A stretch of 64,000 nucleotides of DNA, taken from assembly GCF_017377795.1 (NCBI RefSeq), contig NZ_JAFRDR010000001.1:496001-560000 (forward strand). The letters run 5' to 3'. This DNA is from Williamsia soli. Its GTDB lineage: Bacteria; Actinomycetota; Actinomycetes; Mycobacteriales; Mycobacteriaceae. Below, one piece after another: positions 1,241-15,423 of the stretch. The translations under genes were made by a program, and so were the position numbers. The notes beneath the pieces were generated by a model. It made no database searches, was not told the DNA's origin, and saw only the letters and a list, made by a program, of their open reading frames with translations. Position 1 is the first letter of the stretch. Each line of letters starts with the position of its first letter.

Positions 1241-2164
1241 ATGAAGCCGTTGCGGAGAAAACCGAAGCAGCTCGACGAAGAACCTGAGCTGCTGAAGCCT
1301 GCATCCGGCGGTCGTGGTGGGTTCACGCTGATCCCCAAAGGGGGCCCATCGGGTAAGCCGATGCAACTCCCCGGGTCGTCGGCTCCGGGGGAAACGAACG
1401 ATGACGGTGAGCTGTCGGCAATCGGCGGGGCCCTGGTCATCGATGAAGCCGGTCGCCGGCGGGCGAAGCAGATCGCGCGCAGACTCGCACTCGCGCAACC
1501 GATGCGGCAGCGTCGTGCGCGGCGTGCCAGTGCAGGCACCCTCACGACCATGCGCTGGCGCGGTGGGACCGACGAGCTCGATCTCGACGCGACCCTGGAA
1601 GCGATTGCCGGTAATCCGTTGCCCACCGACGACGACATCCTTGTTCGGGAGCGGGTCCGCAACCGACGGTCGATCGTACTCGTCGTCGACATCTCGGGCT
1701 CGACCAAAGGTGAACAGGTACGTACCGCGGCGGCCACGGTCGGCGCGATGGTCGGGGAGTTGGCGCGCGATGACGTTGCAGTGGTGGCGTTTTGGTCAGA
1801 CGCCGCGCTTCTGGTTCGGCTGGGGGAGCGGGTGGGTCCGGAGACCGTGCTCGATCAGCTGCTGACCCTGCCTACGCAGGGTCTGACCAACGTCGCGTTC
1901 GCGCTGGAGGTCGCGGCGCGTGAACTGGTCGGTGTGCCACCCGCCGATGCGAGGGTGCTGCTGCTCAGTGACTGCGTACACAACGCCGGGCCGGATCCGC
2001 GTGGTGTCGCGGCGCGGTTGCCGCGACTCGATGTACTGCTCGACACCTCGGGCGAGAACGATCTGGATCTCGGCCGCGATCTGGGGGTGATCGGCCGCGG
2101 ACGGTGTCGGGTGATCCGGGATCACCACGACGTGGCGCCCGCCTTGACCTCGATCTTTGGCTAA
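1241..2164 (+). CDS. VWA domain protein, partner of MoxR ATPase
   Basis: A 307-residue protein with a von Willebrand factor A domain in its C-terminal half. The MIDAS metal site reads LVVDISGSTKG (D150, S152, S154), and the later Thr and Asp positions fall in LPTQGLTNV and LLLSDCVHN. The N-terminal 100 residues are basic and probably extended. MoxR and VWA proteins encoded side by side form ATPase-adaptor pairs in many bacteria, so this gene most likely works with the upstream ATPase. There is no signal peptide or membrane helix, so it should be cytoplasmic. The substrate is unknown. Confidence 0.85.
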   Translation: MKPLRRKPKQLDEEPELLKPASGGRGGFTLIPKGGPSGKPMQLPGSSAPGETNDDGELSAIGGALVIDEAGRRRAKQIARRLALAQPMRQRRARRASAGTLTTMRWRGGTDELDLDATLEAIAGNPLPTDDDILVRERVRNRRSIVLVVDISGSTKGEQVRTAAATVGAMVGELARDDVAVVAFWSDAALLVRLGERVGPETVLDQLLTLPTQGLTNVAFALEVAARELVGVPPADARVLLLSDCVHNAGPDPRGVAARLPRLDVLLDTSGENDLDLGRDLGVIGRGRCRVIRDHHDVAPALTSIFG

Positions 2165-2189
2165 CTGAGGTCGATCTTCGGGCAGTAGG

Positions 2190-3047
2190 TCAGAACCCGC
2201 CGAAATCCCCGCCACCGAAATCCCCGCCACCGAAATCTCCGCCACCGCCGAAGTCTCCACCACCGAAATCTCCCCCGCCGCCGAAGTCCCCGCTGCCGTA
2301 ATCCCCGCCGCCGTTGTCGCCACCGGAATCTCCACCGAAGTCGCCGGAATCTCCACCGGAGTCACCGCCCGAGTCCAGACCGTCCTGATAGCCGTCGCCG
2401 TAGCCACTCTCGAAGGCCGCGCTGTCGTAGCCGACGCCCGCCATCCCGCCGAACATCGCGCTGAACAAGAAGACCGAGCCGACGCCCCAGGCGCCTGCCA
2501 CCAGCGCCGGCTTCCACCAGGGTTCGGAGTACCAGCCGGCCGGTACGGGGCGTCCTGCGACGCGGCCACCCGGGTAGTAGTTCGGGGTCTTGTCGGACGG
2601 GTTCGGTGACGCGGAGACCTGGCGGCCTTCGAACTCGATGTCGCGGCTCTCGGTGACCTCACCGGAGGACTTCTGTCCGTCTAGTGTGGCGATCTCCGGA
2701 CCCGGATCCATGTCCATCGCGAGTCGAGCTGCTCGGATATAGTAAAGACCTTCCAGCGCAGTCTGTTTGGCCAGCTGTGCCTGTTTGGGCGTGGTGGCCT
2801 GCTCGATCTGCGAACCGGCGGCGTTGAACCGTTCGGAGGCGTCGGACAACGCGGACTTGGCGGGTTCGTTGGAGCCGATCAGGGCGTAGACCTGCCCGCC
2901 GAGCCGCTCGATCGATTGGCGGGCATCAGCTTTCGCGTCAGCGAGGATGGACTCCTCGCTACGGCGACGGCTCGTGCCCTGACCCCGGGCCAGGACGACG
3001 ATGCCGACGACAACGGCGATCACGGCAAAGATCAGCAACAGCTCCAC
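2190..3047 (-). CDS. Glycine-rich membrane protein (DUF1542-like)
   Basis: A 285-residue protein with an N-terminal membrane helix (LLLIFAVIAVVVGIVVLA, residues 3-20), a helical, charged middle region, a second hydrophobic segment near residues 180-205 and a long C-terminal tail made of Gly, Asp, Ser and Phe. The tail repeats the unit GGGDF many times. The overall plan fits the actinobacterial family often annotated DUF1542, whose function is not established. It is convergent with the VWA gene, with only 25 bp between the stops. A role at the membrane or in the envelope is likely; nothing more can be said from sequence. Confidence 0.75.
   Translation of the reverse strand: MELLLIFAVIAVVVGIVVLARGQGTSRRRSEESILADAKADARQSIERLGGQVYALIGSNEPAKSALSDASERFNAAGSQIEQATTPKQAQLAKQTALEGLYYIRAARLAMDMDPGPEIATLDGQKSSGEVTESRDIEFEGRQVSASPNPSDKTPNYYPGGRVAGRPVPAGWYSEPWWKPALVAGAWGVGSVFLFSAMFGGMAGVGYDSAAFESGYGDGYQDGLDSGGDSGGDSGDFGGDSGGDNGGGDYGSGDFGGGGDFGGGDFGGGGDFGGGDFGGGDFGGF
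2200..2300. repeat. In-frame 15-bp coding repeats
   Basis: Repeats of a roughly 15-base unit (CCGCCACCGAAATCC and variants) encode the GGGDF repeats at the C-terminus of the minus-strand glycine-rich protein. Some units carry an extra triplet, as expected from slippage that keeps the frame. Length variation between strains is likely. Confidence 0.8.
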
Positions 3048-3729: not shown

Positions 3730-4997
3730 CTCGTCCGAACCTTGGTGAGGTCGGTGCGCAGCAACATCACGTTGTAGCTGCCCCAACTCGACGCGGTGAA
3801 GTACAGGTCTTTGCCCGTCGACGAGGGATGGATGAAGGGGGCATAGACCCCCGGCAATTGCAGCGAGTTGTACAGGGTCGTAGGCGGACCGAACGGGCCC
3901 TCCGGGTTGTCGGCTGTCCGGATCACCGTGCCGCCATTGAGGTCACTGGTCCCGTAGAGAACGATGTACTTCTGCAGGTACTCGTTCCAGGAGGCCGACA
4001 TCTCACTGACCGGTGCGGCGAGAACTGGCCTCAGGTTGCCGAGCTCTTCTTTCCATGGATCCACCGGGTCGTTGGTGTAGTACTCGTACGCGGCGAGGTT
4101 CACGAAGTCGGCCGGCTTCACCCGGGCGAGGTATGCGCTGCCGAAGCGGCCGTTCGGGGTCCCGTACTGATAGATGTACGGGTCGCCGGGCTTGCCCTTC
4201 GCGTACGCATTCATCTGGAACTTGTCGTTGTCCGCTTGGACTTGTCGAACTGTCGGAACGGTGACGGGTGCGTTGACACGTATCGTGTCGAGCTTGGTCT
4301 CCCAGGTCTGACCGTTGTCTCCCGATTCGGCGATCGCGGAATAGTTGGTGTCCCAGCGCCCCGCGTCGCCCCATTTACGGACAGACATGAAGTTGATGTA
4401 CTGCTTGTTCCCGATCGAGATCGCGGCGGTCGGGATCTTGGTGACCTCGACGTAATCGAGACCGACGGCTTCGATCAACTGCCGCGCAAAGTTCGGCCGG
4501 TCGGCCGAGACGACCGATCCGGACGTGACGTTCCCGGGCTGGGCGTTCGGGACCGTGATGCCATCTGCCAAGTCGTTGTCATTCGACCGCAACAGCACGT
4601 TGAAGCGCCATTCCTGGCCGGCCGCGTTGCAGTTGCCAAAGGTGTCGCCGTACGCCATCAGGGTCTGACCCTGTGCGTTCTTCCAGCTGATGCCGAGGTC
4701 GGTGCCAGAGATCCCGAATCTGTTGAGGGTGTCGTTCTCGCTGCGGGGTCCGGTCACCCACGAAACGGTCTTGGTGGTGGCGCCGTTGAACCGGGGCAGT
4801 GCTCCCTGAGGTCCGCGGCCGCTTTGTCCGCCGGGTCCGCCGCTGCTCCCGGTGCCCAACCCAGGGATGCCGCTCGAACCGCTGGTTCCCGGGTTCCCGC
4901 AGGGTGCGGCCGCAGCAGGTGCTGCCAGTGCGACGGTTCCCGCCGCAGCCAGGGCGAGCACAGTGGTTCCGATTGTTGCTGCCCGCAAAGCGCGCAT
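3726..4997 (-). CDS. Secreted DUF4185 domain protein
   Basis: A 423-residue exported protein. I chose the ATG at 4997 because a GAGGGG Shine-Dalgarno sits 4 bases before it and the product then begins directly with a signal peptide: MRALRAA, a hydrophobic Ala/Val/Leu core, and a cleavage region ending APAAAAP. After a Gly/Pro/Ser-rich linker, residues 75-420 follow the DUF4185 pattern, with a repeated beta-propeller-like character (for example SWKNAQGQTLMAYGDTFGN and YSAIAESGDNGQTWE). DUF4185 proteins are common in mycolata and their activity is not established, although the fold resembles five-bladed glycosidase-like propellers. An extended N-terminus to 5150 is possible but would bury the signal peptide. 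Confidence 0.85.
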   Translation of the reverse strand: MRALRAATIGTTVLALAAAGTVALAAPAAAAPCGNPGTSGSSGIPGLGTGSSGGPGGQSGRGPQGALPRFNGATTKTVSWVTGPRSENDTLNRFGISGTDLGISWKNAQGQTLMAYGDTFGNCNAAGQEWRFNVLLRSNDNDLADGITVPNAQPGNVTSGSVVSADRPNFARQLIEAVGLDYVEVTKIPTAAISIGNKQYINFMSVRKWGDAGRWDTNYSAIAESGDNGQTWETKLDTIRVNAPVTVPTVRQVQADNDKFQMNAYAKGKPGDPYIYQYGTPNGRFGSAYLARVKPADFVNLAAYEYYTNDPVDPWKEELGNLRPVLAAPVSEMSASWNEYLQKYIVLYGTSDLNGGTVIRTADNPEGPFGPPTTLYNSLQLPGVYAPFIHPSSTGKDLYFTASSWGSYNVMLLRTDLTKVRTS

Positions 4998-5150
4998 GGG
5001 TCCCCTCATCCGACGATCCGTGTTACCCCTGATGCTGAAGTGACTGATGGGGGTTAGATACGTCAGTGTTCCAGAGGTGTGAGGGTTTGCGAGTCTCGCT
5101 TCCGCAACGATCTGATGTTCGATGGAAGTACTCGGAGGAGAGGGGCGCAC

Positions 5151-5795
5151 GTGATCACACGGCCTGCGGAGCTGATCGATCGGATCGAACGGCTACGGAA
5201 GACACGTGAACGTGTGCTGATCGGGATCGTCGGTGAGCCGGGGTCCGGGAAGAGCACGGTGTCCGCTGCCGTGTCGGATGTGCTGGGCGTCGACGCGGTG
5301 GTGGTCCCGATGGACGGCTTTCACCTGTCGAATGAGCAACTCGCGCACCTCGGCAGATCCGGCCGGAAAGGGGCGATCGACACCTTTGACGCGTTCGGTT
5401 ATCTGCAGTTGGTGAGGCGGCTTCGCAGCCGGGACGAGCCTGTGGTCTATGCGCCCGACTACGTGCGCGGGGTAGAGGAGGCGATCGCGGGTTCGATCGC
5501 GGTCCCCGCAGACGTGCCGGTCGTGATTACGGAGGGTAACTACCTACTTGACGGCGACAAACCGTGGTCCGGGCTGCGTTCTCTGCTCGATGAGGTCTGG
5601 TATATCGAAGCGCCGCACCACCTTCGGCTCGAACGACTCGTGCAGCGACACATCCGGTTCGGAATGTCTGAATCCGCCGCGTGGCGTTGGGCCGAAGGTC
5701 CGGACGAGAGCAACGCACAGCGGACGAGGGCGAAGCGTCAGCTCGCCGATCTGGTCATCGACGTGACAGCGTTCGCTGCCGACGAACAGGACTGA
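5151..5795 (+). CDS. Nucleoside/nucleotide kinase family protein (P-loop)
   Basis: A 214-residue P-loop kinase. The GTG at 5151 is preceded by a very strong ribosome binding site (GGAGGAGAGG at 5135-5144), which decides the start. Walker A is GEPGSGKST near residue 27, followed by VVVPMDGFHLSN, the substrate-binding segment shared by the uridine kinase and pantothenate kinase-like families. DVPVVITEGNYLL and a C-terminal basic lid (RLVQRHIRFGMS) complete the family pattern. These proteins phosphorylate sugars, nucleosides or vitamin precursors; the substrate cannot be fixed here. The divergent upstream gene is the DUF4185 protein. Confidence 0.85.
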   Translation: MITRPAELIDRIERLRKTRERVLIGIVGEPGSGKSTVSAAVSDVLGVDAVVVPMDGFHLSNEQLAHLGRSGRKGAIDTFDAFGYLQLVRRLRSRDEPVVYAPDYVRGVEEAIAGSIAVPADVPVVITEGNYLLDGDKPWSGLRSLLDEVWYIEAPHHLRLERLVQRHIRFGMSESAAWRWAEGPDESNAQRTRAKRQLADLVIDVTAFAADEQD

Positions 5796-6419
5796 TCATG
5801 GGCGCAAGCCGAGGCCACGTGTCAGAGTGGTCGCAGCGAACTGTGCGGCGGCGTCCCAATCATGGGTGTGCAGGTGCTGCCGCGCACCGGTGAACTGGTC
5901 GGAAAGGCCGGTGATGGTGGCCCAGAGCAGCGTCAGAGCGCTTGTGATCTCGACTCTTTCGGCCTCGGGTTGTGCTGAATACATGCGATCGAGTGAAGTG
6001 TGGAGCACGGCCAGGACCTTGCGAGCAGCCGAGGCCAACGATTCCGTGTGGGCCGACGATTCGGCGGCCCCGATGTCGGCGAGCAGGGACCAGATGTTCA
6101 GCTCACGGCCGTAGATCCGGTACACGTCGAGGTACTCGGTGGCCACCAGGACGAACAGCGCGGCGGGATCGTCCGCTGACAAACATTCGGGCTCGATCAC
6201 GTTGTGCAGCAGATGGAGGCGCTCTGCGTAGAGCTCGGCGAACAGCGCCTCTTTGGTGGGAAAGTACGTGTAGATCGTGCCGGGACTGATGCCTGCGCCC
6301 TTCGCGACATCGCGCATCTGCAGTGCTGCATAGCCCTTGTCTGCGAGCAGTGCGGCGCCGGCGGTGAGGATGTCGCGGCGCCGTGCGTCGCGGTCACCCC
6401 ATTTGGTCGCCAACAACAC
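5796..6419 (-). CDS. TetR family regulator of the monooxygenase operon
   Basis: A 207-residue TetR-type repressor. The N-terminal helix-turn-helix is visible as ILTAGAALLADKGYAALQ, then MRDVAKGAGISPGTIYTYF and PTKEALFAEL. The rest is an all-helical ligand domain. The start overlaps the end of the upstream monooxygenase gene by 26 bp, so the two are translationally linked. A ribosome-binding GAGAGAGG lies immediately before GTG 6419, and the TTG codons just after it are alternative starts. The palindrome at 7907-7919 upstream of the operon is the likely operator, giving autorepression relieved by a monooxygenase substrate or product. Confidence 0.88.
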   Translation of the reverse strand: MLLATKWGDRDARRRDILTAGAALLADKGYAALQMRDVAKGAGISPGTIYTYFPTKEALFAELYAERLHLLHNVIEPECLSADDPAALFVLVATEYLDVYRIYGRELNIWSLLADIGAAESSAHTESLASAARKVLAVLHTSLDRMYSAQPEAERVEITSALTLLWATITGLSDQFTGARQHLHTHDWDAAAQFAATTLTRGLGLRP

Positions 6420-7872
6420 CTCTCTCGGGGTGCGTGATCAGGTAATCCGACGACAGAGGCTGTCCGAGGAACTGTTTCAGCGTGGCGAGATCAAACGGCC
6501 AGAGGTCGACCGTGCCGTCGTCCTTGAAATACCAACTCTCGCAGCCGGTGTTCCAGACGGTCGGCTGTAAGGCTTCCACCACATCGGAGTTGAAGCGCCG
6601 CGTTGCCTTCTCGGACACCTCGACAGTCGACATCTCCCCGTTTGCGAACGCCGAGATCCACCGGATGATGTGGTCGCAGGTCAGCTCGGCCGCGGTTTGC
6701 AGGTGGATGCTGCCGACGGGGCTGTTGGGGCCGAGGATGGTGAAGAAGTTGGGGAAGCCTGGGATGCTCGTCATCGCGAACGCGTGCGGCCCGCTCTTCC
6801 AGGCCTCGTCGATCGTGATGCCATCGCGTCCGGTCAGGTTCATGGGCCGCATGTAATTGTGGGCTTCGAATCCGGTGGCGAGGACGACGACGTCCACGTC
6901 GTGATGGTGGCCGTCGGCGGTGACGATGCCGGTCGCGTCGACGTGGTCGATGCGGTCGGTCACCACCTCGACGTTCGGCTGCTGGACGGCCCGGAAGTAG
7001 TTACCGGACAGCACCTGTCGCTTACACAGTGGTTGGTAGTCAGGGCGCAGTCGCTCGCGGAGGTCGCGGTCGCGGATCAGCCGTAGGCAGAGCCGGGCGT
7101 AGCCCTGCACCGCTCGCCGCTTGATGCCGGGATGGATGGTCAGGTCGGTGAACAGGGCGCTGGCGCGAACCCACGCTCGAAATGATGCCTGCGCCAGTGC
7201 GGGTTTCCGCTGGAACAACCTGGTCACGAACTTCGGCTGGGGAAGGGTGGTCGGTGCCCACAGCACCCATTGCGGACTGCGTTGGAAGAGTGTCAGTGTG
7301 CGCGCGGTGGGTTGCAGTGCGCCGGTGATCTGCACGCCCGTCGAGCCTCCGCCGATGATGGCGATGCGCTTGTCCACGGTGTCGAGGCCGCGATCCCATC
7401 GTGCGGTGTGGACAACGGGGCCGGCGAAGTCGTCGAGCCCCGGGATGTCGGGGTGGTTCGGGTGGTGCAGTACGCCCGTCGCGGCAACCAGGAAGTCCAC
7501 GGTGAACTCGTCGCCGGCGGCGGTGTCGACATGCCAGACGTCGTCGGCGAACCGAGCGGCGACGACCTCGGAGTCGAGCCGGATGTGAGGCCACAGGTCG
7601 TGATCGTCGGCGACGCCGCGGTGATAGGCCAGGATGTCGTCGCGCGAGGAGAAGATGTTCGGCCAGTCGGTCTTGTTCTGGAACGAGTACCGGTAGAGCA
7701 GCGATGGGACGTCGCACGCGAGGCCCGGATACCGGTTCCAGAACCACACCCCGCCGACGTCGGCACCCTTTTCGAGGATGGTGAAGTCGTCGAACCCGGC
7801 GGCCTTGAGTTTGACGCCCATCGCGAGTCCGGACATACCTGCGCCGATGACCAGCACCCTGGGGCCGGTCAT
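6394..7872 (-). CDS. Flavin-containing monooxygenase (Baeyer-Villiger type)
   Basis: A 492-residue FAD/NADPH monooxygenase. The first Rossmann motif, VLVIGAGMSGLAMG, starts at about residue 5; the second, IAIIGGGSTGVQI, lies near residue 170. The Baeyer-Villiger fingerprint F-x-G-x-x-x-H-x-x-x-W is intact as FAGPVVHTARW, so oxidation of a ketone or aldehyde to an ester is plausible. The ATG at 7872 begins directly with the FAD motif; an in-frame ATG at 7920 would add 16 residues and run through the operator, so I prefer 7872. The TetR gene overlaps its 3' end. Substrate unknown. Confidence 0.88.
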   Translation of the reverse strand: MTGPRVLVIGAGMSGLAMGVKLKAAGFDDFTILEKGADVGGVWFWNRYPGLACDVPSLLYRYSFQNKTDWPNIFSSRDDILAYHRGVADDHDLWPHIRLDSEVVAARFADDVWHVDTAAGDEFTVDFLVAATGVLHHPNHPDIPGLDDFAGPVVHTARWDRGLDTVDKRIAIIGGGSTGVQITGALQPTARTLTLFQRSPQWVLWAPTTLPQPKFVTRLFQRKPALAQASFRAWVRASALFTDLTIHPGIKRRAVQGYARLCLRLIRDRDLRERLRPDYQPLCKRQVLSGNYFRAVQQPNVEVVTDRIDHVDATGIVTADGHHHDVDVVVLATGFEAHNYMRPMNLTGRDGITIDEAWKSGPHAFAMTSIPGFPNFFTILGPNSPVGSIHLQTAAELTCDHIIRWISAFANGEMSTVEVSEKATRRFNSDVVEALQPTVWNTGCESWYFKDDGTVDLWPFDLATLKQFLGQPLSSDYLITHPERGVVGDQMG

Positions 7873-7906
7873 GAGAGAACCTGGTCTCGCGAACCGAGCC
7901 CCATTA

Positions 7907-7919
7907 TGAACATTGTTCA
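7907..7919. promoter_or_regulatory. TetR operator, perfect 13-bp palindrome
   Basis: TGAACA-T-TGTTCA is a perfect inverted repeat 35 bp upstream of the monooxygenase start, and TAAT just downstream on the minus strand could belong to a -10 element. The position and form fit a TetR operator serving the monooxygenase-TetR operon. Confidence 0.65.
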
Positions 7920-8013
7920 AAAGTAGAGACTCGACGCGTTCGAGTCAACGGTCGATGTCACCATTGCCGATTCCCGGGACGCCGGCGGCCTCGACCTTCG
8001 ATACTGTCGTGCC

Positions 8014-9885
8014 GTGACTGTTGCGCCGTACGGATCGTGGACCTCACCCATTGCCGCTGCCGACCTCGCCGCGAGTGGGCACCCCGTGTCCGGGGCCCGT
8101 TTCGTCGGGTCTGATGTCTGGTGGGCGGAGGGCCGACCCACCGAGCGCGGTCGCACCGCGATCAGGCGGGCCGGTGCCGACGGTGAGCCTGTCGACATCT
8201 TGGCTGCACCGTTCGACGCGCGCACGCGTGTCCATGAGTACGGCGGCGGGGCGTGGGCGGTCACCGAGGACGCGCGGCTCGTCTACGCCGAGTACTCCGA
8301 TCAGCGTCTCTACGTGGTGGAGGACGGGCACCGCACCGCGTTGACTCCCGAGACCAACTCGCAGGTGCGCTATGCGGACTTGGCGGTGCGCGACCACGAG
8401 GTCTGGTGTGTACGTGAGAGTCACGACGACGATGGAACTATCGTCCGGGACATCGTGGCGATCGGATTGGACGATGCCTCGGTCCGTTCGGTCGTGTCGG
8501 GCTCCGATTTTCTCGCCTATCCGCGGGTCTCGCCGGACGGTACGCGGCTGGCGTGGATCGCCTGGAACCATCCGCAGATGCCCTGGGACGGAACGGAACT
8601 ACGCGTGGCTTCGTTGGGTGCCGACGGGGTCGCCGGTGAGTGGATCGTCCTCGCGGGTGGCACCGACGAGTCCGTGCTGCAACCCGAATGGACGGGACCG
8701 GGTCAGGTTCTCGCGACCAGTGACCGCAGCGGCTGGTGGAACCTCTACACCTTCGATCTCGACGGTGGTGAGCCGCAGGCCGTCGGCGCCGTGGCGGCCG
8801 ACATAGGGGCGCCGTTGTGGCAGCTGGGCGCTGGGTGGTACCTGCAGTCGGACGACGCGACGTGGTTGACCGTTCGGACGCTCGGAACCGACACTCTCGC
8901 CCGACTCGACACGATCACAGGCGAATTCGATGACATCGACCTCGGTGATCACACGAGCATCGGGTTGCTCGACATCGACGGACCACGGGCCTTGCTGCGG
9001 TCCGCGGGCGCTCAGACGCCGGGCGGCATCCGGATCCTCGACCTCGCATCCGGTGAGCTCACGGATGTCCGGCTGTCCCTCGACGAGGTACCGCCCGAGC
9101 AGTATTTACCTGTAGCGCAGCAGATCACGTTCGACGGACCGAAACGCGAGGTGCACGCCGTCGTCTATCCACCTCGCAACCCGGACCACACCGGGCCCGA
9201 CGATGCACTGCCGCCGTACATCGCGTTCGTCCACGGTGGCCCGACCGCGCACGTGGCACCTCGGCTCGATCCGGTGTACGCGTTCTTCACCTCACGCGGC
9301 TACGGAGTCGTGGACGTCAACTACGGCGGATCGAGCGGGTACGGCCGGGAGTACCGCAATCGCCTGCGCGGGCAGTGGGGAATCGTCGACGTCGAGGACA
9401 CCGTCGCCGCCGTGGAGGGTCTCGCCGACCTCGGTTTGGCCGACCGTTCCCGGCTCGCCATCGAAGGTGGATCGGCCGGCGGGTGGACCGTCCTTGCTGC
9501 ATTGACGTCTTCCGACGTGTTCGCCTGCGGTGCCTCGTATTACGGTGTTGCCGAACTGGAGAAGTTCGTCGCGGAAACCCATGATTTCGAATCCCGCTAC
9601 ATCGACGGTCTCATCGGTCCGCTCCCCGAAGCCGCCGAGCTCTATCGCAGCCGCGCCCCGTTGAACAACGTGGACGGACTCAGCTGCCCGGTGCTGCTCC
9701 TACAAGGTCTCGACGACCCGATCGTTCCGCCGGCCCAGGCAGAACGTTTCCGTGATGCGCTGGTGGCAAAAGGGATTCCGCACCGGTACATCGCCTACGA
9801 AGGCGAGTCCCACGGTTTCCGCAAGGTTGAAACCATCATCGACGCACGCGAGTCGGAGCTGGCGTTCTACCGGGAGTACCTGTGA
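8014..9885 (+). CDS. S9 family serine peptidase (prolyl oligopeptidase-like)
   Basis: A 623-residue cytoplasmic peptidase with a GTG start. Residues up to about 350 form a beta-propeller, seen as repeats of the type SPDGTRLAWIAW. The C-terminal alpha/beta-hydrolase domain contains the nucleophile elbow GGSAGGW (Ser487), the acid in LQGLDDPIVPP (Asp567 or Asp568) and the catalytic histidine in GESHGF (His600), in the right order and at family spacing. Such enzymes cleave short peptides, or acyl-aminoacyl substrates, after entry through the propeller. No signal peptide is visible. The gene stands alone and is convergent with the next one. Confidence 0.92.
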   Translation: MTVAPYGSWTSPIAAADLAASGHPVSGARFVGSDVWWAEGRPTERGRTAIRRAGADGEPVDILAAPFDARTRVHEYGGGAWAVTEDARLVYAEYSDQRLYVVEDGHRTALTPETNSQVRYADLAVRDHEVWCVRESHDDDGTIVRDIVAIGLDDASVRSVVSGSDFLAYPRVSPDGTRLAWIAWNHPQMPWDGTELRVASLGADGVAGEWIVLAGGTDESVLQPEWTGPGQVLATSDRSGWWNLYTFDLDGGEPQAVGAVAADIGAPLWQLGAGWYLQSDDATWLTVRTLGTDTLARLDTITGEFDDIDLGDHTSIGLLDIDGPRALLRSAGAQTPGGIRILDLASGELTDVRLSLDEVPPEQYLPVAQQITFDGPKREVHAVVYPPRNPDHTGPDDALPPYIAFVHGGPTAHVAPRLDPVYAFFTSRGYGVVDVNYGGSSGYGREYRNRLRGQWGIVDVEDTVAAVEGLADLGLADRSRLAIEGGSAGGWTVLAALTSSDVFACGASYYGVAELEKFVAETHDFESRYIDGLIGPLPEAAELYRSRAPLNNVDGLSCPVLLLQGLDDPIVPPAQAERFRDALVAKGIPHRYIAYEGESHGFRKVETIIDARESELAFYREYL

Positions 9886-9900
9886 CGGAAGGGGCGCCCT

Positions 9901-10407
9901 CTAGCCGCCCTCGACCGTGAACCCGACGCGCTGGAAGTACTTCTCGAAGCCTTCGACGTGGTCGCCCAGGTGATGGATGAGTTTGGCAGTGTCGTGTTCG
10001 TGCTGAGTCGTTGCCAAACCGCGGATCTCCAGTGCCCACGGTAGGACCGCGCGACCGCCGTCGGCCACGACGTAGTTGAAGCGGTCGACGAGTGCGCCGC
10101 ACCAGAAGAAGTCGGCAAAGCAGAGTCTGACCGTCTTGTCGTTGAATGTTTTCGACCATTCGAAGATCCGGGCGTGGCTCTGGTCGCCTTCGTGCTCGAA
10201 ATCGAGGCCCATTCCCCAGGCGATCGTGATGTTGAGGTCGGGCTTGTAGGACGCGGTCGCGTAGTGACTGTTCACCTCCAGGCGATAGCCGTTCGCACCC
10301 GGAGAACCATCGAACCAGTTGTGGTAACTCGGGCCCTGGTGTTTGATCACGTTCCAGTCGTCCGGCCCCGAGCTCTGGATGATGCGACGGAAGTCTTCGA
10401 GATGCAA
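9901..10407 (-). CDS. Conserved hypothetical protein
   Basis: I do not recognise this 168-residue protein. The start is placed at TTG 10407 because GAAAGGAC lies 5 bases before it; the open frame continues upstream to 10545 but has no comparable ribosome binding site. The product begins LHLEDFRRIIQ, is rich in aromatic residues and histidine (KHQGPSYHNWFDG, HYATASYKPDLN), and has a segment, VRLCFADFFWCGALVDRFNY, that could be a buried beta/alpha core. No signal peptide, membrane helix or known catalytic motif is evident. It is convergent with the S9 peptidase gene, with 15 bp between stops. Confidence 0.7.
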   Translation of the reverse strand: MHLEDFRRIIQSSGPDDWNVIKHQGPSYHNWFDGSPGANGYRLEVNSHYATASYKPDLNITIAWGMGLDFEHEGDQSHARIFEWSKTFNDKTVRLCFADFFWCGALVDRFNYVVADGGRAVLPWALEIRGLATTQHEHDTAKLIHHLGDHVEGFEKYFQRVGFTVEGG

Positions 10408-10558
10408 TGCGCGTCCTTTCGTTGGTCGAAGGATAGCGTGGCGGATGGTCGCCAGGCGGCCGACATCTGAGTTCGCCTGCCGCACAGGCATGGTGACTTC
10501 GAATGAGGCATTAGCTGAACCAAATATGCTTCGTTTTGCTGACAAATCGGACGATGGG

Positions 10559-10569
10559 TGACATTGTCA
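10559..10569. promoter_or_regulatory. Small inverted repeat upstream of the 25-residue frame
   Basis: TGACA-T-TGTCA is an 11-bp perfect dyad in the 229-bp gap between the leftward hypothetical gene and the small frame at 10637. It could be an operator for either gene. The rest of this gap shows nothing else that I can name. Confidence 0.25.
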
Positions 10570-10636
10570 ACGCTGGTTGTCGAATGGAAGATCCTCGACC
10601 GCCGATCCAGTGAAACCGTTGCTGAAAGGAACTCCT

Positions 10637-10714
10637 GTGTCTTCTGAAATCGCCCTCACGGTTGTGTTCGCGTTTCTCGGTCCGCTGCTCGCGCTGTACG
10701 CGAACGGGAGCTAG
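10637..10714 (+). CDS. Possible 25-residue membrane peptide
   Basis: A GTG at 10637 opens a 25-codon frame ending in TAG at 10712-10714. It is preceded by GAAAGGA at 10624-10630, which is a good Shine-Dalgarno at 6 bases spacing. The product starts MSSEIALTVVF and is almost entirely one hydrophobic helix with a short polar end (LYANGS). Good spacing, a compact hydrophobic product and a hairpin 43 bp after the stop support a real small gene, but this length arises easily by chance. It sits just outside the left end of the tRNA-Gly island. Function unknown. Confidence 0.45.
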   Translation: MSSEIALTVVFAFLGPLLALYANGS

Positions 10715-10756
10715 CTGCGAGACCTGTCAGGCTCTGATGGGTTGAGCGTCAGTGCG

Positions 10757-10782
10757 CGCCCGGGTGCTGCAGACCCCGGGCG
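10757..10782. terminator. GC-rich hairpin
   Basis: CGCCCGGG at 10757-10764 pairs with CCCGGGCG at 10775-10782 across a 10-base loop. There is no T-run, which is usual for actinobacterial terminators. It could end transcription of the small frame at 10637. Confidence 0.4.
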
Positions 10783-10807
10783 TATGGCCTGGCAGGGAGC
10801 CTGTCGA

Positions 10808-10854
10808 ACGTGGAGCCGATGACGGGAATCGAACCCGCGTGTGCAGCTTGGGAA
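10808..10854. repeat. Left att-like repeat (displaced tRNA-Gly 3' half)
   Basis: Forty-seven bases identical to 13802-13848 and lying 2,994 bp away. The identity ends exactly inside the anticodon-stem region, after TTGGGAA on the plus strand. Neither an acceptor 5' strand nor a D-arm follows, so this copy is not a tRNA gene. Confidence 0.9.
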
Positions 10855-11040: not shown

Positions 11041-11322
11041 CTACCGGTTGAGCGGGACGGCGAGCTTGCACTGCCAGCATTCGTATCCCGGGAGACTGGA
11101 GTCGACGTTTTGCTTCGCATTGCATCGAGGGCACACGACAGCTTTAGTTCCTTCTGGGGGCGGTGGGTCGCCGGGCGCGGCTAGCGCGGCGGCGAGGACG
11201 CCGATGAGCGGGAGCAGCAGGCCGAGCATAAAGAATGGTCCGGTGTCTCGGTTCTTGCTCTTCGCAATCAGGCTGGCAACGATCGCGCAAATGATGCCTG
11301 AAATTATCCAGACGAGCAGCAG
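11041..11322 (-). CDS. Membrane protein with C-terminal zinc ribbon, unclear start
   Basis: The frame ending in TAG at 11041-11043 encodes two hydrophobic helices and then a zinc ribbon, CPRCNAKQNV-(9)-CWQC. The first helix (VWIISGIICAIVASLIA) and the linker AKSKNRDTGPFF lie upstream of the only in-frame ATG (11229), whose product would be 62 residues and lack that helix. The frame stays open to 11376 but contains no ATG, GTG or TTG before 11229, so I mark a CTG at 11322 as a nominal start. The same layout, two helices plus a CxxC ribbon, is known in small actinobacterial and phage proteins of unknown role. It may be island cargo whose 5' end was altered. Confidence 0.6.
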   Translation of the reverse strand: MLLVWIISGIICAIVASLIAKSKNRDTGPFFMLGLLLPLIGVLAAALAAPGDPPPPEGTKAVVCPRCNAKQNVDSSLPGYECWQCKLAVPLNR

Positions 11323-11504: not shown

Positions 11505-11739
11505 GTGAAGTTGCCGCCACCGCTCAAGTTCCACGCGCTGTGCCACACCTACGCCTCGCTCTGCGTTGCGGTGGGTATCCCACCGATGGAGATCGCCAGA
11601 TTCATGGGGCACGTACACGGTCACCACCACGCTGACCGTGTACGGGCACCTGTTCGAGGACGACCACCCCGACGCGATGGCCGCACTCGGAGCGATGGGC
11701 ACACCCCAGGCCGAGAACGTAGTCCAGCTGCGCGGTTAG
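11505..11739 (+). pseudogene. Tyrosine integrase C-terminus, frameshifted and mutated
   Basis: The frame from 11505 reads FHALCHTYASL and then GIPPMEIARFMGH, the core of a phage-type tyrosine recombinase. The conserved H-x-L-R-H has Cys in place of the catalytic Arg. After the MGH motif, one extra base shifts the frame: the continuation TTTLTVYGHLFEDDHPDAM, with the nucleophile Tyr, is in the next frame and ends at TAG 11737-11739. Typical relatives read MGHxxVTTTLxVYxHLF, so the shift falls at about 11612-11620. The N-terminal and central parts of the enzyme are missing. The remnant overlaps the 3' end of the DUF262 gene. Confidence 0.85.
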
Positions 11740-12869
11740 GCAGGTTTCTCAAACAATGCTCGACCACGCGGAAGAAATCTGCTCAGCCGAGTCTCCGTGC
11801 TGACACCAGTCGCGAAGCTAGTCGTCATGTCGGGGCTTTCCCAGAACTCTTTCACTACCGATTCGACATCAGTCCGATACGAATCTACCCGCCCGACGTG
11901 ATACCCCAGCCCCAGTGCGATCACCTCGTATGAAGTGTTCAAGAACGAGCCAGCAAATCTTCTGTCGGCGGGTATCCAACGACGGAATGCGTTCTCGGCA
12001 CAATCGTGCGCGATTAAATCGAAAGTCTTCTTGAATGTAGCCTCAAGTTTAGTGCGAACCCTCTTCGGTGCTGAGGCCAACGCAATAGTTTTATCGTCCA
12101 AATATGACGAGAAATTTTTGAGGTCTTTGGCTTTGATATTCGCCTCATTGTGCAAAACCAGGAACCGCAACACCAGTTCGATGTCGTATTGCTCATCAAT
12201 GAGCCGTTCGGGGATTTGAACTGAGTCACGAAACCCTCTGTACCGCGCGATTTTTTCAACCCACTGGAGGAACTCGGGATCCACGCTGACGAGCATGCAA
12301 CTGCGGAGCTCTTGGGTCGTGAGTTGCGAACCGTAGCTGTTGAGCCGCTGAAAAAGGTCATACTTCGTGTCACTGGAAGAATCGCGTTGGATAATCTGCA
12401 CGTCAATTCGAGAGCGCTTAATATCTCGCCGCTGAGCGGTGGCCAGAGCTAACGGCATGGCCTCCTCCTCTGGCCCAATTGGCCAGAAGTGCCCTTCGAG
12501 TGCAGGAAGGTATTTCGTAGCCGACAGAGTGAGACGCTTGATTGCCTTCCCGTCGGCGTCTTTCAGTAAGCCCTGAAGCTGCAGTAGCGTACTCACGCGT
12601 TGAAGCCCGTCGACGAGCTCCCATTCTCCGGATTTCGACGCCGCAACGAAAATGGAAGGCAGCGGTATTCCGAGGAGAATGCTCTCGATTAGGCGCGACT
12701 TCTGAAGGTCGTCCCAGCGAAAAAAGCGCTGAAATTCGGGATGAACAATTAGGTCTCCATCTGTGTATAGCGAGGTTAGCTCGCCTAGAGACATACCGTA
12801 TCGGTCGGTTGAAATTTCGCGGCGGCGTTCGAAAATTTCGGCCTCTAGGTTACTTGCGGACTCAACCAT
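11736..12869 (-). CDS. DUF262 domain protein
   Basis: A 377-residue protein with a DUF262 (ParB/sulfiredoxin-like NTPase-nuclease) domain. The characteristic motifs are HPEFQRFFRW (residues 43-52), SILLGIPLPSIFV (63-75) and VDGLQRVSTL (86-95), the latter matching the DGQQR-x-T signature. The C-terminal half is helical and does not show the DUF1524 HNH motif found in GmrSD-type type IV restriction enzymes, so it may need a partner. DUF262 domains occur in modification-dependent restriction and other defence proteins. The ATG overlaps the end of the FRG gene by 8 bp. Base composition is much more AT-rich than the chromosome average of the window. Confidence 0.88.
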   Translation of the reverse strand: MVESASNLEAEIFERRREISTDRYGMSLGELTSLYTDGDLIVHPEFQRFFRWDDLQKSRLIESILLGIPLPSIFVAASKSGEWELVDGLQRVSTLLQLQGLLKDADGKAIKRLTLSATKYLPALEGHFWPIGPEEEAMPLALATAQRRDIKRSRIDVQIIQRDSSSDTKYDLFQRLNSYGSQLTTQELRSCMLVSVDPEFLQWVEKIARYRGFRDSVQIPERLIDEQYDIELVLRFLVLHNEANIKAKDLKNFSSYLDDKTIALASAPKRVRTKLEATFKKTFDLIAHDCAENAFRRWIPADRRFAGSFLNTSYEVIALGLGYHVGRVDSYRTDVESVVKEFWESPDMTTSFATGVSTETRLSRFLPRGRALFEKPA

Positions 12870-13656
12870 CTGACGGCCACCCTTCGAGGATTGTTAGTTC
12901 TGCTGCCAAGCTCGACAAATCTGGGAAAATCATTGACTCGGTGAAGCCGAGGAACCTCAACTGGTTCATTAGGTCCGCCGAGCTACCTGAGAACACATAC
13001 TTAGTGAGGTAGCCCGCCCAGTTCGTGTCGTCGCACGGGAGCTCATCCATTCCGAGCCAGGTGTCGCCCGCGATAGTGAAGGTTCCCCGCTGAGCGACAA
13101 TCCGAGGACTGTTATGCACTCCGTACAGCGCAACCGGGTACTTCGCGCGCTTGGCTAGTCGGTCTCCGGTGGAGGTGGCTGGCTCCCAACGCTGCGCCTC
13201 GTCGTCGGCGACCGTGAGGACGCCTATGCCTGTGTCGCTCAGCTGCGGAACTCGTGAGTTCCAGCCCAGCGGATCGAGTGTCCACACCGTCGGCTTTCCT
13301 TCGCTTTGTGACGGCGGGGTTGTCGCTGCGAAATAAGTTGCCACCAGGAGATTTTCACTCCAGTCAAGCAGCCTCGTCGGAACGCCGTGGTGCTGCATCG
13401 AGAACAAGTGTTCCCAAGGTTGCTGGGGATAACCGGCGGGCCAGAATGGGAGGCTGCGCTCTCTGAAGCGAGCCACTAGACGCGCCTCGCGCTGATAGAC
13501 CTCGTCCATGGGTCGTGATGGCCCGCGCATCAATTTGGGTGTCAACTTGTATTCGTTGCTCGGCTGACCGCGAAACCAAAGTGGGCTGTCAGACAATCGG
13601 CCGACGACCTTGCTAACGAGGTCACTTACAGAGTCAAACTCAAGATCGTCGATCAT
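12862..13656 (-). CDS. FRG domain protein
   Basis: A 264-residue protein built on the FRG domain. The naming motif is LWFRGQPS (FRG at residues 28-30), and the second conserved block, MQHHGVPTRLLDWSENL, is at 87-103, followed by VATYFAA and later a VALYGVHNSPRIVAQRGTF segment that is typical of the family's end. GGAG lies 6 bases before ATG 13656. The biochemical function of FRG domains is not firmly established; they recur in defence-island proteins, and the conserved Arg/His/Asp pattern suggests an enzyme. It is the first gene of a two-gene operon with DUF262, which implies a joint role. Confidence 0.88.
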   Translation of the reverse strand: MIDDLEFDSVSDLVSKVVGRLSDSPLWFRGQPSNEYKLTPKLMRGPSRPMDEVYQREARLVARFRERSLPFWPAGYPQQPWEHLFSMQHHGVPTRLLDWSENLLVATYFAATTPPSQSEGKPTVWTLDPLGWNSRVPQLSDTGIGVLTVADDEAQRWEPATSTGDRLAKRAKYPVALYGVHNSPRIVAQRGTFTIAGDTWLGMDELPCDDTNWAGYLTKYVFSGSSADLMNQLRFLGFTESMIFPDLSSLAAELTILEGWPSDG

Positions 13657-13801: not shown

Positions 13802-13848
13802 ACGTGGAGCCGATGACGGGAATCGAACCCGCGTGTGCAGCTTGGGAA
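13802..13848. repeat. Right att-like repeat inside tRNA-Gly
   Basis: This is the second copy of the 47-bp repeat found at 10808. It covers the tRNA-Gly 3' half from the anticodon loop to the CCA end plus three flanking bases. Confidence 0.9.
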
Positions 13849-13878
13849 GCTGCCGTTCTGCCATTGAACTACATCGGC
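13805..13878 (-). tRNA. tRNA-Gly (anticodon CCC)
   Basis: Read on the minus strand, the acceptor arms GCCGATG (5') and CATCGGC (3') pair perfectly, followed by T and an encoded CCA. The anticodon stem GCAGC/GCTGC encloses the loop TTCCCAA, giving anticodon CCC. The T-arm contains GGTTCGATTCC. The length of 74 bases with CCA is normal for tRNA-Gly. It reads GGG codons and serves as the integration site of the island to its left, which restored the complete 3' half. Confidence 0.95.
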
Positions 13879-13982
13879 GTGCGGCCCGAAGGCTGCGAGA
13901 GCGATATTAACAGGCTGCCGGCATAGAGCGTTTGGCGACACCGTCTTGGCTGGTGAGCGCTGCTGCGGACCGTTGTCAGACC

Positions 13983-13998
13983 TCGAATGTATGTTCTA
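13983..13998. promoter_or_regulatory. SOS (LexA) box-like palindrome
   Basis: TCGAAT-GTAT-GTTCTA is close to the mycobacterial LexA consensus TCGAAC-N4-GTTCGA, with one mismatch in each half. It lies just before the DUF222/HNH gene. SOS boxes in front of 13E12/DUF222 genes are known in M. tuberculosis, which supports the call. Confidence 0.5.
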
Positions 13999-14019
13999 TT
14001 CATGGGGTGGGGCACGGCA

Positions 14020-15423
14020 GTGACTATGGATGCTGAGGCGTCGGAGTTGTTGTCGCGCGTGCAGTCTGGGACTCGTGAGGTGAATCAGGCGTGGGCGGCG
14101 CGTCTTGACGATGGTCTCGCCTATTACCGATATGTCTCCTCGATCGAGGATGAGCACGGGACGCGGGCAGCGGCGTGTGAGATCGCTGTGGCGTGGCGGT
14201 GCACGACCGGTCAGGCTGATCATCTGTTGCGGTGCCGGCGGTTGCTCGATCATCTGCCCGAGCTGGCGGAGGCGTTCTCGGCGGGGGAGCTGTCCATCGA
14301 AAAGTTGAAGGCTTTGTATCACCGCGCGTCACGGGGGTATAGGGACGCGTTGATGGATCTCGATGGCGTACTGGCTGAGGATGCGATGTTGTTGGGTGAC
14401 AACACCTTCGCCGAGGAGCTGGATCGCCATTTGATGCCGTTTGAACCGGACCGCCCTGATGATGATGGTGCGGCGGATCCGGCACGCCGGGTGAGCGTAC
14501 GTCGTCGGGCCGGTGGGATGGCGAGTCTGACCACGGGGTGCACGGCTGAGGAGGCGATCCGGGCCAAAGCTCAGCTCGAGGAGATGGCGCTCGATGACCC
14601 TGCGGGTGAGGTCGATGCGGTGCTCGATGCGATTGCGAAGGCCAACGCTGCAGCTACCGAGGATGCCGAGCCCGAGCCCGAGCCAGAAGTAGAACCCGAG
14701 CCCGAGCCTGCGGCCCGCCCGTCTGCTGCTGCACCTTCGCACACTGCCAAACGTGCCTGGACGGAGTTGGTACTCGATCTACCAACCCTGCTCGGGCTGT
14801 CGAGCAACCCCGGCTACTTGCTGGGGTACGGGTCGCTTGATTGTGATCAATCGCGGTCGTTGGCGGGTCGTTCCCGATGGAAAGCGCTGGTGACGATCGG
14901 CGAGGACGCGATCGCGGCGCTGATGCAGTTGATCAACTCCGCGCAGGGTCAGCCGGTGACGGCACAGGATGTCGCGACGGCGCTGATGAATGCCGTCGAC
15001 GGTGGTGATCGGGTGATTCTCGGGGAGAAGGATGTCGGCCCGGCCCCGCCGGTGAAAGCGCCGCCTTCCAAGGATGGTCACGGTGGGTGGAAGAGGCCTC
15101 CGCGGGGTGCGTTGAAATACAAGCCCGGGCGCAAGCTTGCCCGGATCATCCGAGCACTCGATGGGACGTGCCGATTCTCCGGGTGTAAGAAGCCGGCGAA
15201 GGATTGCGAGATCGACCACATCGTGCCGTTCAACCACAACAACCCCATGGCCGGCGGCTGGACGATCGAATCGAACCTGGCGTGCCTGTGCAAGGAGCAT
15301 CATGACCTCAAAACCCGGGGCATCATCCGGGTGGAGATGCGCGGCAACCGGGAATACTGGATCGACACCCGAGCCGGGCAAAGGGTTGTCACCACACCGG
15401 CTGTACGTAGGCCGTCAGGCTAG
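14020..15423 (+). CDS. DUF222 / HNH endonuclease (13E12 repeat family)
   Basis: A 467-residue member of the 13E12 family. The first 230 residues are the helical DUF222 domain (for example EIAVAWRCTTGQADHLLRCRR). An Ala/Glu/Pro-rich spacer follows, with a run of EPEPE-type residues near 218-235. The C-terminus holds an HNH nuclease: CRFSGCKKPAKDCEIDHI with VPFNHNNPMAGG, then NLACLCKEHHDLKT. These genes are abundant and mobile in mycolata; DNA cleavage is inferred. I placed the start at GTG 14020; ATG 14002 and ATG 14026 are alternatives. Earlier starts would lie within the SOS-like box. Confidence 0.85.
   Translation: MTMDAEASELLSRVQSGTREVNQAWAARLDDGLAYYRYVSSIEDEHGTRAAACEIAVAWRCTTGQADHLLRCRRLLDHLPELAEAFSAGELSIEKLKALYHRASRGYRDALMDLDGVLAEDAMLLGDNTFAEELDRHLMPFEPDRPDDDGAADPARRVSVRRRAGGMASLTTGCTAEEAIRAKAQLEEMALDDPAGEVDAVLDAIAKANAAATEDAEPEPEPEVEPEPEPAARPSAAAPSHTAKRAWTELVLDLPTLLGLSSNPGYLLGYGSLDCDQSRSLAGRSRWKALVTIGEDAIAALMQLINSAQGQPVTAQDVATALMNAVDGGDRVILGEKDVGPAPPVKAPPSKDGHGGWKRPPRGALKYKPGRKLARIIRALDGTCRFSGCKKPAKDCEIDHIVPFNHNNPMAGGWTIESNLACLCKEHHDLKTRGIIRVEMRGNREYWIDTRAGQRVVTTPAVRRPSG

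Follow-up and report, generated by a model that had tools for sequence, protein, structure and literature searches.

The FRG-DUF262 gene pair and the element that carries it

The stretch of Williamsia soli DNA analysed here (the window; 64,000 nucleotides of contig NZ_JAFRDR010000001.1) contains a small element at a tRNA-Gly gene, in which a gene for an FRG-domain protein is followed on the same strand by a gene for a DUF262 protein (Table 1). A first reading, made from the letters alone (the sequence-only reading), had described this pair and the 8-bp overlap of the two genes, and both were borne out at the same coordinates. Translational coupling of FRG and DUF262 is likely, considering that the stop of the first gene and the start of the second fall within the overlap.

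The domain calls of that reading were confirmed as well. In fact, the FRG protein matches PF08867 in Pfam with an E-value of 3.7e-21 (76.3 bits, against a curated cut-off of 25), and residues 31-192 of the DUF262 protein match PF03235 (GmrSD_N) with an E-value of 5e-24. Also the claim that a DUF1524/HNH domain is absent holds, since Pfam gave no such match in the DUF262 protein at E-values up to 1, and none in the FRG protein. When the PADLOC models were used, the FRG protein was recognised as PDC-S15 (2.5e-44; all 14 matching models share that name), and the DUF262 protein gave NsnA as best match (5.2e-52), then PD-T4-2_A (8.6e-25). Among the models matching either protein, none is named for an FRG-DUF262 pair. 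The sequence search of the PDB returned nothing reliable for the FRG protein, nor for the DUF262 protein as a single query; a DUF262 profile (E up to 1) retrieved six chains, five of which are DUF262 or SspE proteins and one a designed protein (0.9). The Williamsia soli genome contains a single FRG match (E up to 0.001).

With respect to their nearest relative, the two genes differ mostly at third codon positions (0.21/0.11/0.64 at positions 1/2/3 in FRG and 0.17/0.12/0.62 in DUF262), a pattern as under purifying selection on both; the synonymous divergence (dS) between the window pair and the relatives compared is saturated. Since the pair also recurs elsewhere, as described below, this pattern indicates that the arrangement found in the window is more than chance.

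The two genes had been described as the sole intact large genes of a tRNA-Gly island, and the ends of this island could now be located. Two perfect 47-bp direct repeats, which are copies of the 3' half of tRNA-Gly, lie 2994 bp apart from start to start and bound a 3.0-kb element. FRG and DUF262 are the only intact large genes between the repeats, and the only other recognisable gene is the broken remnant of an integrase. The corresponding open reading frame (ORF) of a related island, in Williamsia genome G299, matches PF00589 with an E-value of 1.5e-7, and 77% DNA identity was measured between the locus of that island (L191) and window positions 11528-11748. The "strong AT bias" attributed to the pair stood as a G+C content lower than that of the surroundings, and is relative only: FRG has 58.5%, DUF262 52.6% and the whole island 57.1% G+C, as compared to 66.4% and 64.8% in two flanking genes. 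We also observed a 62-amino-acid ORF inside the element (11041-11229, minus strand), with a hydrophobic N-terminus and, by eye, a CxxC...CxxC zinc-ribbon-like motif, which gave no PADLOC match.

Table 1. Features of the tRNA-Gly element in the window
Feature	Position	Strand	Remarks
FRG-domain gene	12862-13656	-	264 amino acids, first in the pair; put forward as effector (predicted enzyme of the ADP-ribosyltransferase (ART) superfamily); PF08867, PADLOC PDC-S15
DUF262 / GmrSD_N gene	11736-12869	-	377 amino acids, second gene; proposed sensor or switch dependent on nucleoside triphosphate (NTP); PF03235, PADLOC NsnA, PD-T4-2_A
8-bp overlap, FRG stop / DUF262 start	12862-12869	-	
tRNA-Gly(CCC), integration site, intact	13805-13878	-	ARAGORN
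Attachment (att) repeat, tRNA-side copy, 47 bp	13802-13848		perfect direct repeat; the empty site of genome G298 has one copy (L192 from 1516)
Attachment repeat, far-end copy, 47 bp	10808-10854		perfect direct repeat
Tyrosine integrase C-terminus remnant, frame broken	11505-11739	+	weak PF00589 match (0.014); corresponds to ORF 9958-10392 of the G299 island (L191)

The same site in other Williamsia genomes

Nine genomes of the genus, including that of the window, were searched, and a gene resembling the window DUF262 was found in two of them, the window genome and G299. Genome G298 contains the exact empty site: window segments 7870-10854 and 13802-15369 match positions 4500-1516 and 1562-1 of its locus L192, the matching segments overlap by exactly the 47-bp core, and the tRNA of G298 is intact. 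The att repeats and the empty site in a relative show that the element is integrative, inserted in tRNA-Gly, with its integrase present as a remnant. A gene at 13987-15423, which has a sub-threshold HNH match, was considered as a candidate for the missing nuclease and rejected, because it is located outside the element, in a region also present beside the empty site.

At the same tRNA-Gly, G299 (locus L191) contains a diverged pair, with FRG at 7128-7928 (62% identical) and DUF262 at 7932-9077 (61%), together with the integrase C-terminus, between flanks that are 93.5-95% identical to those of the window. A pair that is only 61-62% identical at a site with such similar flanks indicates that it was replaced or separately acquired there. 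A second copy of the 47-bp core, with up to five mismatches, was not found in the G299 locus. An extra gene of 287 amino acids (L191 9085-9948, minus strand), lacking Pfam and PADLOC matches, lies between DUF262 and the integrase remnant and is a candidate for further cargo. Genome G304 carries other sequence at the tRNA-Gly site, including a RecQ-like helicase gene. On a viral contig (L140) an integrase and the tRNA-Gly core (95.7%) are followed, about 120 bp further, by an FRG gene that is 59% identical in its best segment and is cut by the contig end. When the window DUF262 was searched across the phylum (E 1e-20), three of 396 genomes gave a match, namely that of the window and two others that are distant.

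Conservation of the FRG-DUF262 pairing

The set of FRG loci consisted of the best 80 of 419 confirmed loci, those most like the window FRG. The alignment used for the search (A1) was made of four FRGs, every one from a pair, and the search therefore favours the paired FRG subfamily. A locus was taken as paired when a DUF262 ORF was present on the same strand, at most 100 nt downstream, with distances taken between stop-to-stop ORFs. DUF262 was found directly downstream in 72 of these 80 loci, which are distributed over 15 named phyla (2 loci unplaced). Among the eight unpaired loci, L097 is cut at a contig end, and L099, L109, L119, L121, L126, L133 and L135 have no DUF262. The sequence-only reading had been made, beforehand, to depend on conservation of the pair beyond this genome, and such conservation is what these loci show.

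The pair was also found in 3 of 13 FRG-bearing genomes of an order-wide sample (298 genomes; 1.5-kb flanks), in one of ten FRG loci fetched from plasmids (100 records with a match) and in 10 of 31 FRG loci on viral contigs, where four of the others are cut. The pairing thus characterises a single large subfamily and does not extend to FRG in general.

Probable exchange of DUF262 partners, FRG or HEPN

Where relatives of the window DUF262 have no FRG, a HEPN gene often comes next. This was observed on plasmids of Corynebacterium (two), Psychrobacter, Leptospira and E. coli, on a plasmid of Enterobacter (spanning the start of the record), in loci L003, L004, L005, L006 and L007 and in two viral loci. 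Three of the HEPN partners were scanned and correspond to PF18737/PF18735. In Leptospira noguchii (L049 4992-6119) the DUF262 that precedes HEPN is split into two ORFs and is apparently a broken copy. In the order sample, many DUF262s that are more distantly related had no match to either profile, FRG or HEPN, nearby.

The phylogeny of DUF262 was analysed on 74 rows, after exclusion of five loci as fragments or outliers; 31 of the rows represent a selection from the common type. The phylogeny of FRG included 63 rows. Both trees were obtained with a quick method, long branches were flagged, and the root was not inferred. In the DUF262 tree, 30 of the 31 common-type FRG-linked rows fall in one clade (99), and the remaining one is L139. 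The group of the window DUF262, which has eight FRG-linked members, shares another clade with seven HEPN-linked proteins (15 rows; Shimodaira-Hasegawa-like approximate likelihood ratio test, SH-aLRT, 99). A single clade of the 38 FRG-linked rows, L139 left aside, was rejected by the approximately unbiased (AU) test (p 3e-10). The eight FRG-linked DUF262s of the window type, on the other hand, were not rejected as a single clade (AU p 0.39), and for this reason a reversal from FRG to HEPN on the Corynebacterium plasmids, which the tree suggests (100), was dropped. In the FRG tree, the window-type FRGs and L140 form one clade (100), nested in a set of 30 (97) that otherwise contains FRGs paired with the common-type DUF262.

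These trees place the window DUF262 as PD-T4-2-like, and not as the type found beside most paired FRGs, and its FRG in the widespread FRG-DUF262 lineage. The simplest history would be that a PD-T4-2-like DUF262 became the new partner of an FRG from the common operon; as the root was not inferred, the direction of this exchange is an inference. The presence of FRG-linked DUF262s in at least two separate clades indicates that adjacency was re-established, or was kept through exchange.

That the two genes might be chance neighbours, or ordinary housekeeping genes with no joint function, is very improbable. It is true that FRG and DUF262 genes are found separately too, but their adjacency in the same order in nine tenths of the loci and over so many phyla, the separate clades of FRG-linked DUF262s and the codon pattern of purifying selection in both genes are all contrary to chance. 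The occurrence of window-DUF262-like genes in only two of the nine Williamsia genomes argues against housekeeping, and the empty site, together with the scattered occurrence, led us to reject such a function. FRG-DUF262 is almost certainly a real, mobile and widely conserved module.

Genomic surroundings of the paired loci

The G+C content of the pair was lower than that of its flanks in all 63 loci with enough flank (out of 72), with a median difference of -12.1 points. A tRNA end was located in the interval from 600 nt upstream to 200 nt downstream of the FRG ORF start in 8 of the 68 loci with upstream sequence; as a control, 20 regions of 12.7 kb contain 4 tRNAs altogether. A repeat of the tRNA end within the locus was present in one of the 8 tRNA-linked loci (L105).

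The nearest gene on each side of the 72 loci was collected (set A7: 69 upstream and 64 downstream, 133 in total), the neighbouring ORFs being chosen by length and without a gene caller. These neighbours include five Eco29kI-type restriction endonucleases, four C5 methylases, four integrases and four AAA_21 proteins. The control set of 123 genes was drawn from 20 distant regions, which lie on the contigs of 20 of the 72 loci; a size limit excluded from it the 17 longest of the 140 genes picked, whereas set A7 retained its long genes. At 1e-10 set A7 matches 213 PADLOC families and the control 9, none of which is a restriction-modification family, figures that do not correspond to numbers of defence genes, considering that one methylase matches many models and that families, not proteins, were counted. 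The Pfam families of the Eco29kI-type endonuclease, the C5 methylase, the integrase and AAA_21 are absent among the 25 control families listed out of 146, and each of them therefore has at most one member in the control. The surroundings of the paired loci are therefore mobile, low in G+C and rich in defence genes.

Some further FRG loci deserve mention. In L035 (genome G080) the next gene after FRG (1468-2262, minus strand), on the same strand and at a distance of about 440 bp, is SIR2-like (PF13289; 2-1024) and possibly an NAD+-related neighbour of defence type. On the viral contig L149 an unpaired FRG (5872-6684, plus strand) adjoins a divergent gene (4815-5840, minus strand), which we take to encode a DGQHR/DndB-type protein, possibly another ParB-like partner. 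A Burkholderia latens plasmid (L054 2344-3246 and 4947-5747) has HEPN and FRG close to each other, with an IS3 transposase and a small gene in between and no DUF262. On an Agrobacterium tumefaciens plasmid (L051) FRG lies near ABC-three-component and AbiEi/AbiEii genes, in a defence-like region that has no DUF262.

Conserved residues and alternative activities

An alignment of 80 FRG proteins (the window FRG, 78 from paired loci and the contig-cut L140) showed, among other invariant residues, R29, G30, Q88, H89, T94, R95, D98, W99, R185, Q189, G191 and F193. In 51 DUF262 proteins the residues Q47, P71, D87, G88, R91, F173, R175, N177, E187 and R189 are invariant, in agreement with the QR, DGQQR and FxxxN motifs that have been reported in DUF262 (PMC11411939). 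FRG R29 and DUF262 D87, the residues singled out by the sequence-only reading, were correctly numbered and are both invariant.

These residues bear on another possible reading, in which the pair would be an addiction (toxin-antitoxin) module and keep mobile elements stable, with FRG as toxin, DUF262 as antitoxin and any effect on phages as secondary. Such a module would be in line with two co-directional overlapping genes, with an att-bounded island where almost only FRG-DUF262 is still intact, and with the presence of pairs on viral contigs and on a plasmid. However, the invariance of the nucleotide-pocket motif residues in DUF262 goes beyond the needs of an antitoxin, and defence genes are found among the neighbours. 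Moreover, GrwAB and TgvAB need related DUF262 proteins as active components, and mutants in the DUF262 motifs of these systems lose defence (PMC12137116, PMC11411939). We consider an addiction module unlikely.

Alternatively, FRG and DUF262 might constitute one modification-dependent (type IV-like) DNA-cleaving enzyme, in which DUF262 recognises modified phage DNA and an FRG nuclease replaces DUF1524. In GmrSD, BrxU and SspE, DUF262 probably forms the recognition/NTPase half (PMC10952713, PMC11411939), GrwAB and TgvAB are known as GmrSD-like systems of two genes, and restriction-modification genes occur beside paired loci. An enzyme of this kind is nevertheless quite unlikely, considering that a DUF1524/HNH match is present in neither window protein and that the scan of 80 FRGs (E up to 10) revealed no nuclease catalytic family: besides FRG itself it gave weak single-member matches only, the nearest of which was Neil1-DNA_bind (0.27, one member). 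Frg has instead been assigned to the ART superfamily (PMC9503650), and the sister DUF262s carry a HEPN partner, a group associated with ribonucleases.

Proposed function

The best reading, to which we assign a probability of about 0.6, is that of a mobile defence module in which DUF262 would be the sensor or switch and FRG the effector. We predict, and hold it to be likely, that FRG-DUF262 protects against phages or against other mobile DNA. DUF262, the NTPase half of GmrSD-type enzymes, is likely an NTP-dependent sensor or switch, by analogy with GmrSD, BrxU, SspE, GrwAB and TgvAB, and would respond to a signal of infection, such as perhaps modified DNA or DNA that is foreign in another way. 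Binding or hydrolysis of NTP would alter the state of DUF262, and the co-translated FRG would be released or activated. FRG, most likely an enzyme of the ART superfamily, would then consume NAD+ or ADP-ribosylate a target, and as a consequence phage replication would be halted or the infected cell killed. On related DUF262s, a HEPN protein would take the place of FRG, as in the PD-T4-2 architecture.

The placement of Frg in the ART superfamily also presents it as a possible NADase (PMC9503650), and the chances that NAD+ is the substrate of FRG are predicted to be about even. The occurrence of both partners, HEPN and FRG, within a single DUF262 clade suggests that each is an effector working on a common sensor. 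A broader proposal is more tentative and somewhat short of even odds: DUF262 would be a plug-in immune sensor whose effector is either a HEPN ribonuclease or an FRG ADP-ribosyltransferase/NADase, FRG-DUF262 would be a phylum-spanning anti-phage system in its own right that targets NAD+ or ADP-ribosylates, and the window operon would be a natural chimera with PD-T4-2.

Several observations weigh against a defence module with FRG as effector. Unpaired FRGs account for 10 of 13 in the order sample and 9 of 10 loci fetched from plasmids; among loci that are not cut, they account for 7 of 79 in genomes and 17 of 27 on viral contigs. With so many FRGs standing alone, FRG cannot depend on DUF262 in every setting. 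In the DUF262 tree, the FRG-linked L139 is placed on a long branch that belongs to neither clade. PADLOC gave no match for the seven flanking ORFs of the window that were scanned, so that the window shows no defence island beyond the pair. As for the ART assignment of FRG, the hhalign comparison of FRG with RES and KptA gave no signal; the positive control, RES against KptA (both ARTs), gave none either, and the comparison thus has no power.

The occurrence of HEPN or FRG within one DUF262 clade means that partner swaps could separate sensing from killing, and that the activity of FRG and the role of a DUF262 that has no DUF1524 nuclease become testable together. If FRG is an NAD+-using effector, FRG-DUF262 would add to prokaryotic immunity a widespread two-gene system, present in 15 phyla among the 72 paired loci, and would help to explain why the DUF262 module is so frequently reused.

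Comparison with known systems

PD-T4-2, reportedly a two-gene system from the work of Vassallo in 2022, is close to the window pair in its DUF262, which lies in the same clade as the HEPN-linked proteins and gives the PD-T4-2_A match reported above. The partner is different: in PD-T4-2 it is a HEPN protein encoded downstream of DUF262, whereas in the window it is FRG, encoded upstream, and no HEPN match was found in window proteins P0001-P0004 with Pfam and PADLOC. PD-T4-2 is described as DUF262 plus HEPN (PMC10952713), and its deletion raises the plating of T4, which corresponds to a native protection of E. coli against this phage (PMC9519451). The HEPN protein MAE_28990 is described as "in operon with a ParB nuclease" (PMC3710099).

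With GmrSD, BrxU and SspE the pair has in common the DUF262 domain, with its invariant QR, DGQQR-type and FxxxN motif residues; unlike in those systems, the window DUF262 stands alone with an FRG partner and has no DUF1524/HNH. NsnA, the best PADLOC match of the window DUF262, is presumably a gene of the Menshen system, the set of which we take to be an NsnA-type gene plus further Nsn partners. The window differs from it in that no other Nsn-named match was found among the 11 window ORFs scanned. A DUF262 gene is included in Menshen (PMC10952713). The window FRG, for its part, resembles the PADLOC candidate PDC-S15. The S in this name presumably stands for a single-gene candidate.

The proposal of a candidate new system is sustained in that no matching pair was found, and has to be qualified in that its halves are already separate PADLOC entries (PDC-S15 for FRG; NsnA/PD-T4-2_A for DUF262). 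No paper that mentions "FRG domain" and "DUF262" together was found in the literature searched, the scope of which did not extend to bioRxiv and most subscription papers. The FRG-DUF262 pair is apparently undescribed as such, and it would join the two-gene DUF262 defence systems that are already known.

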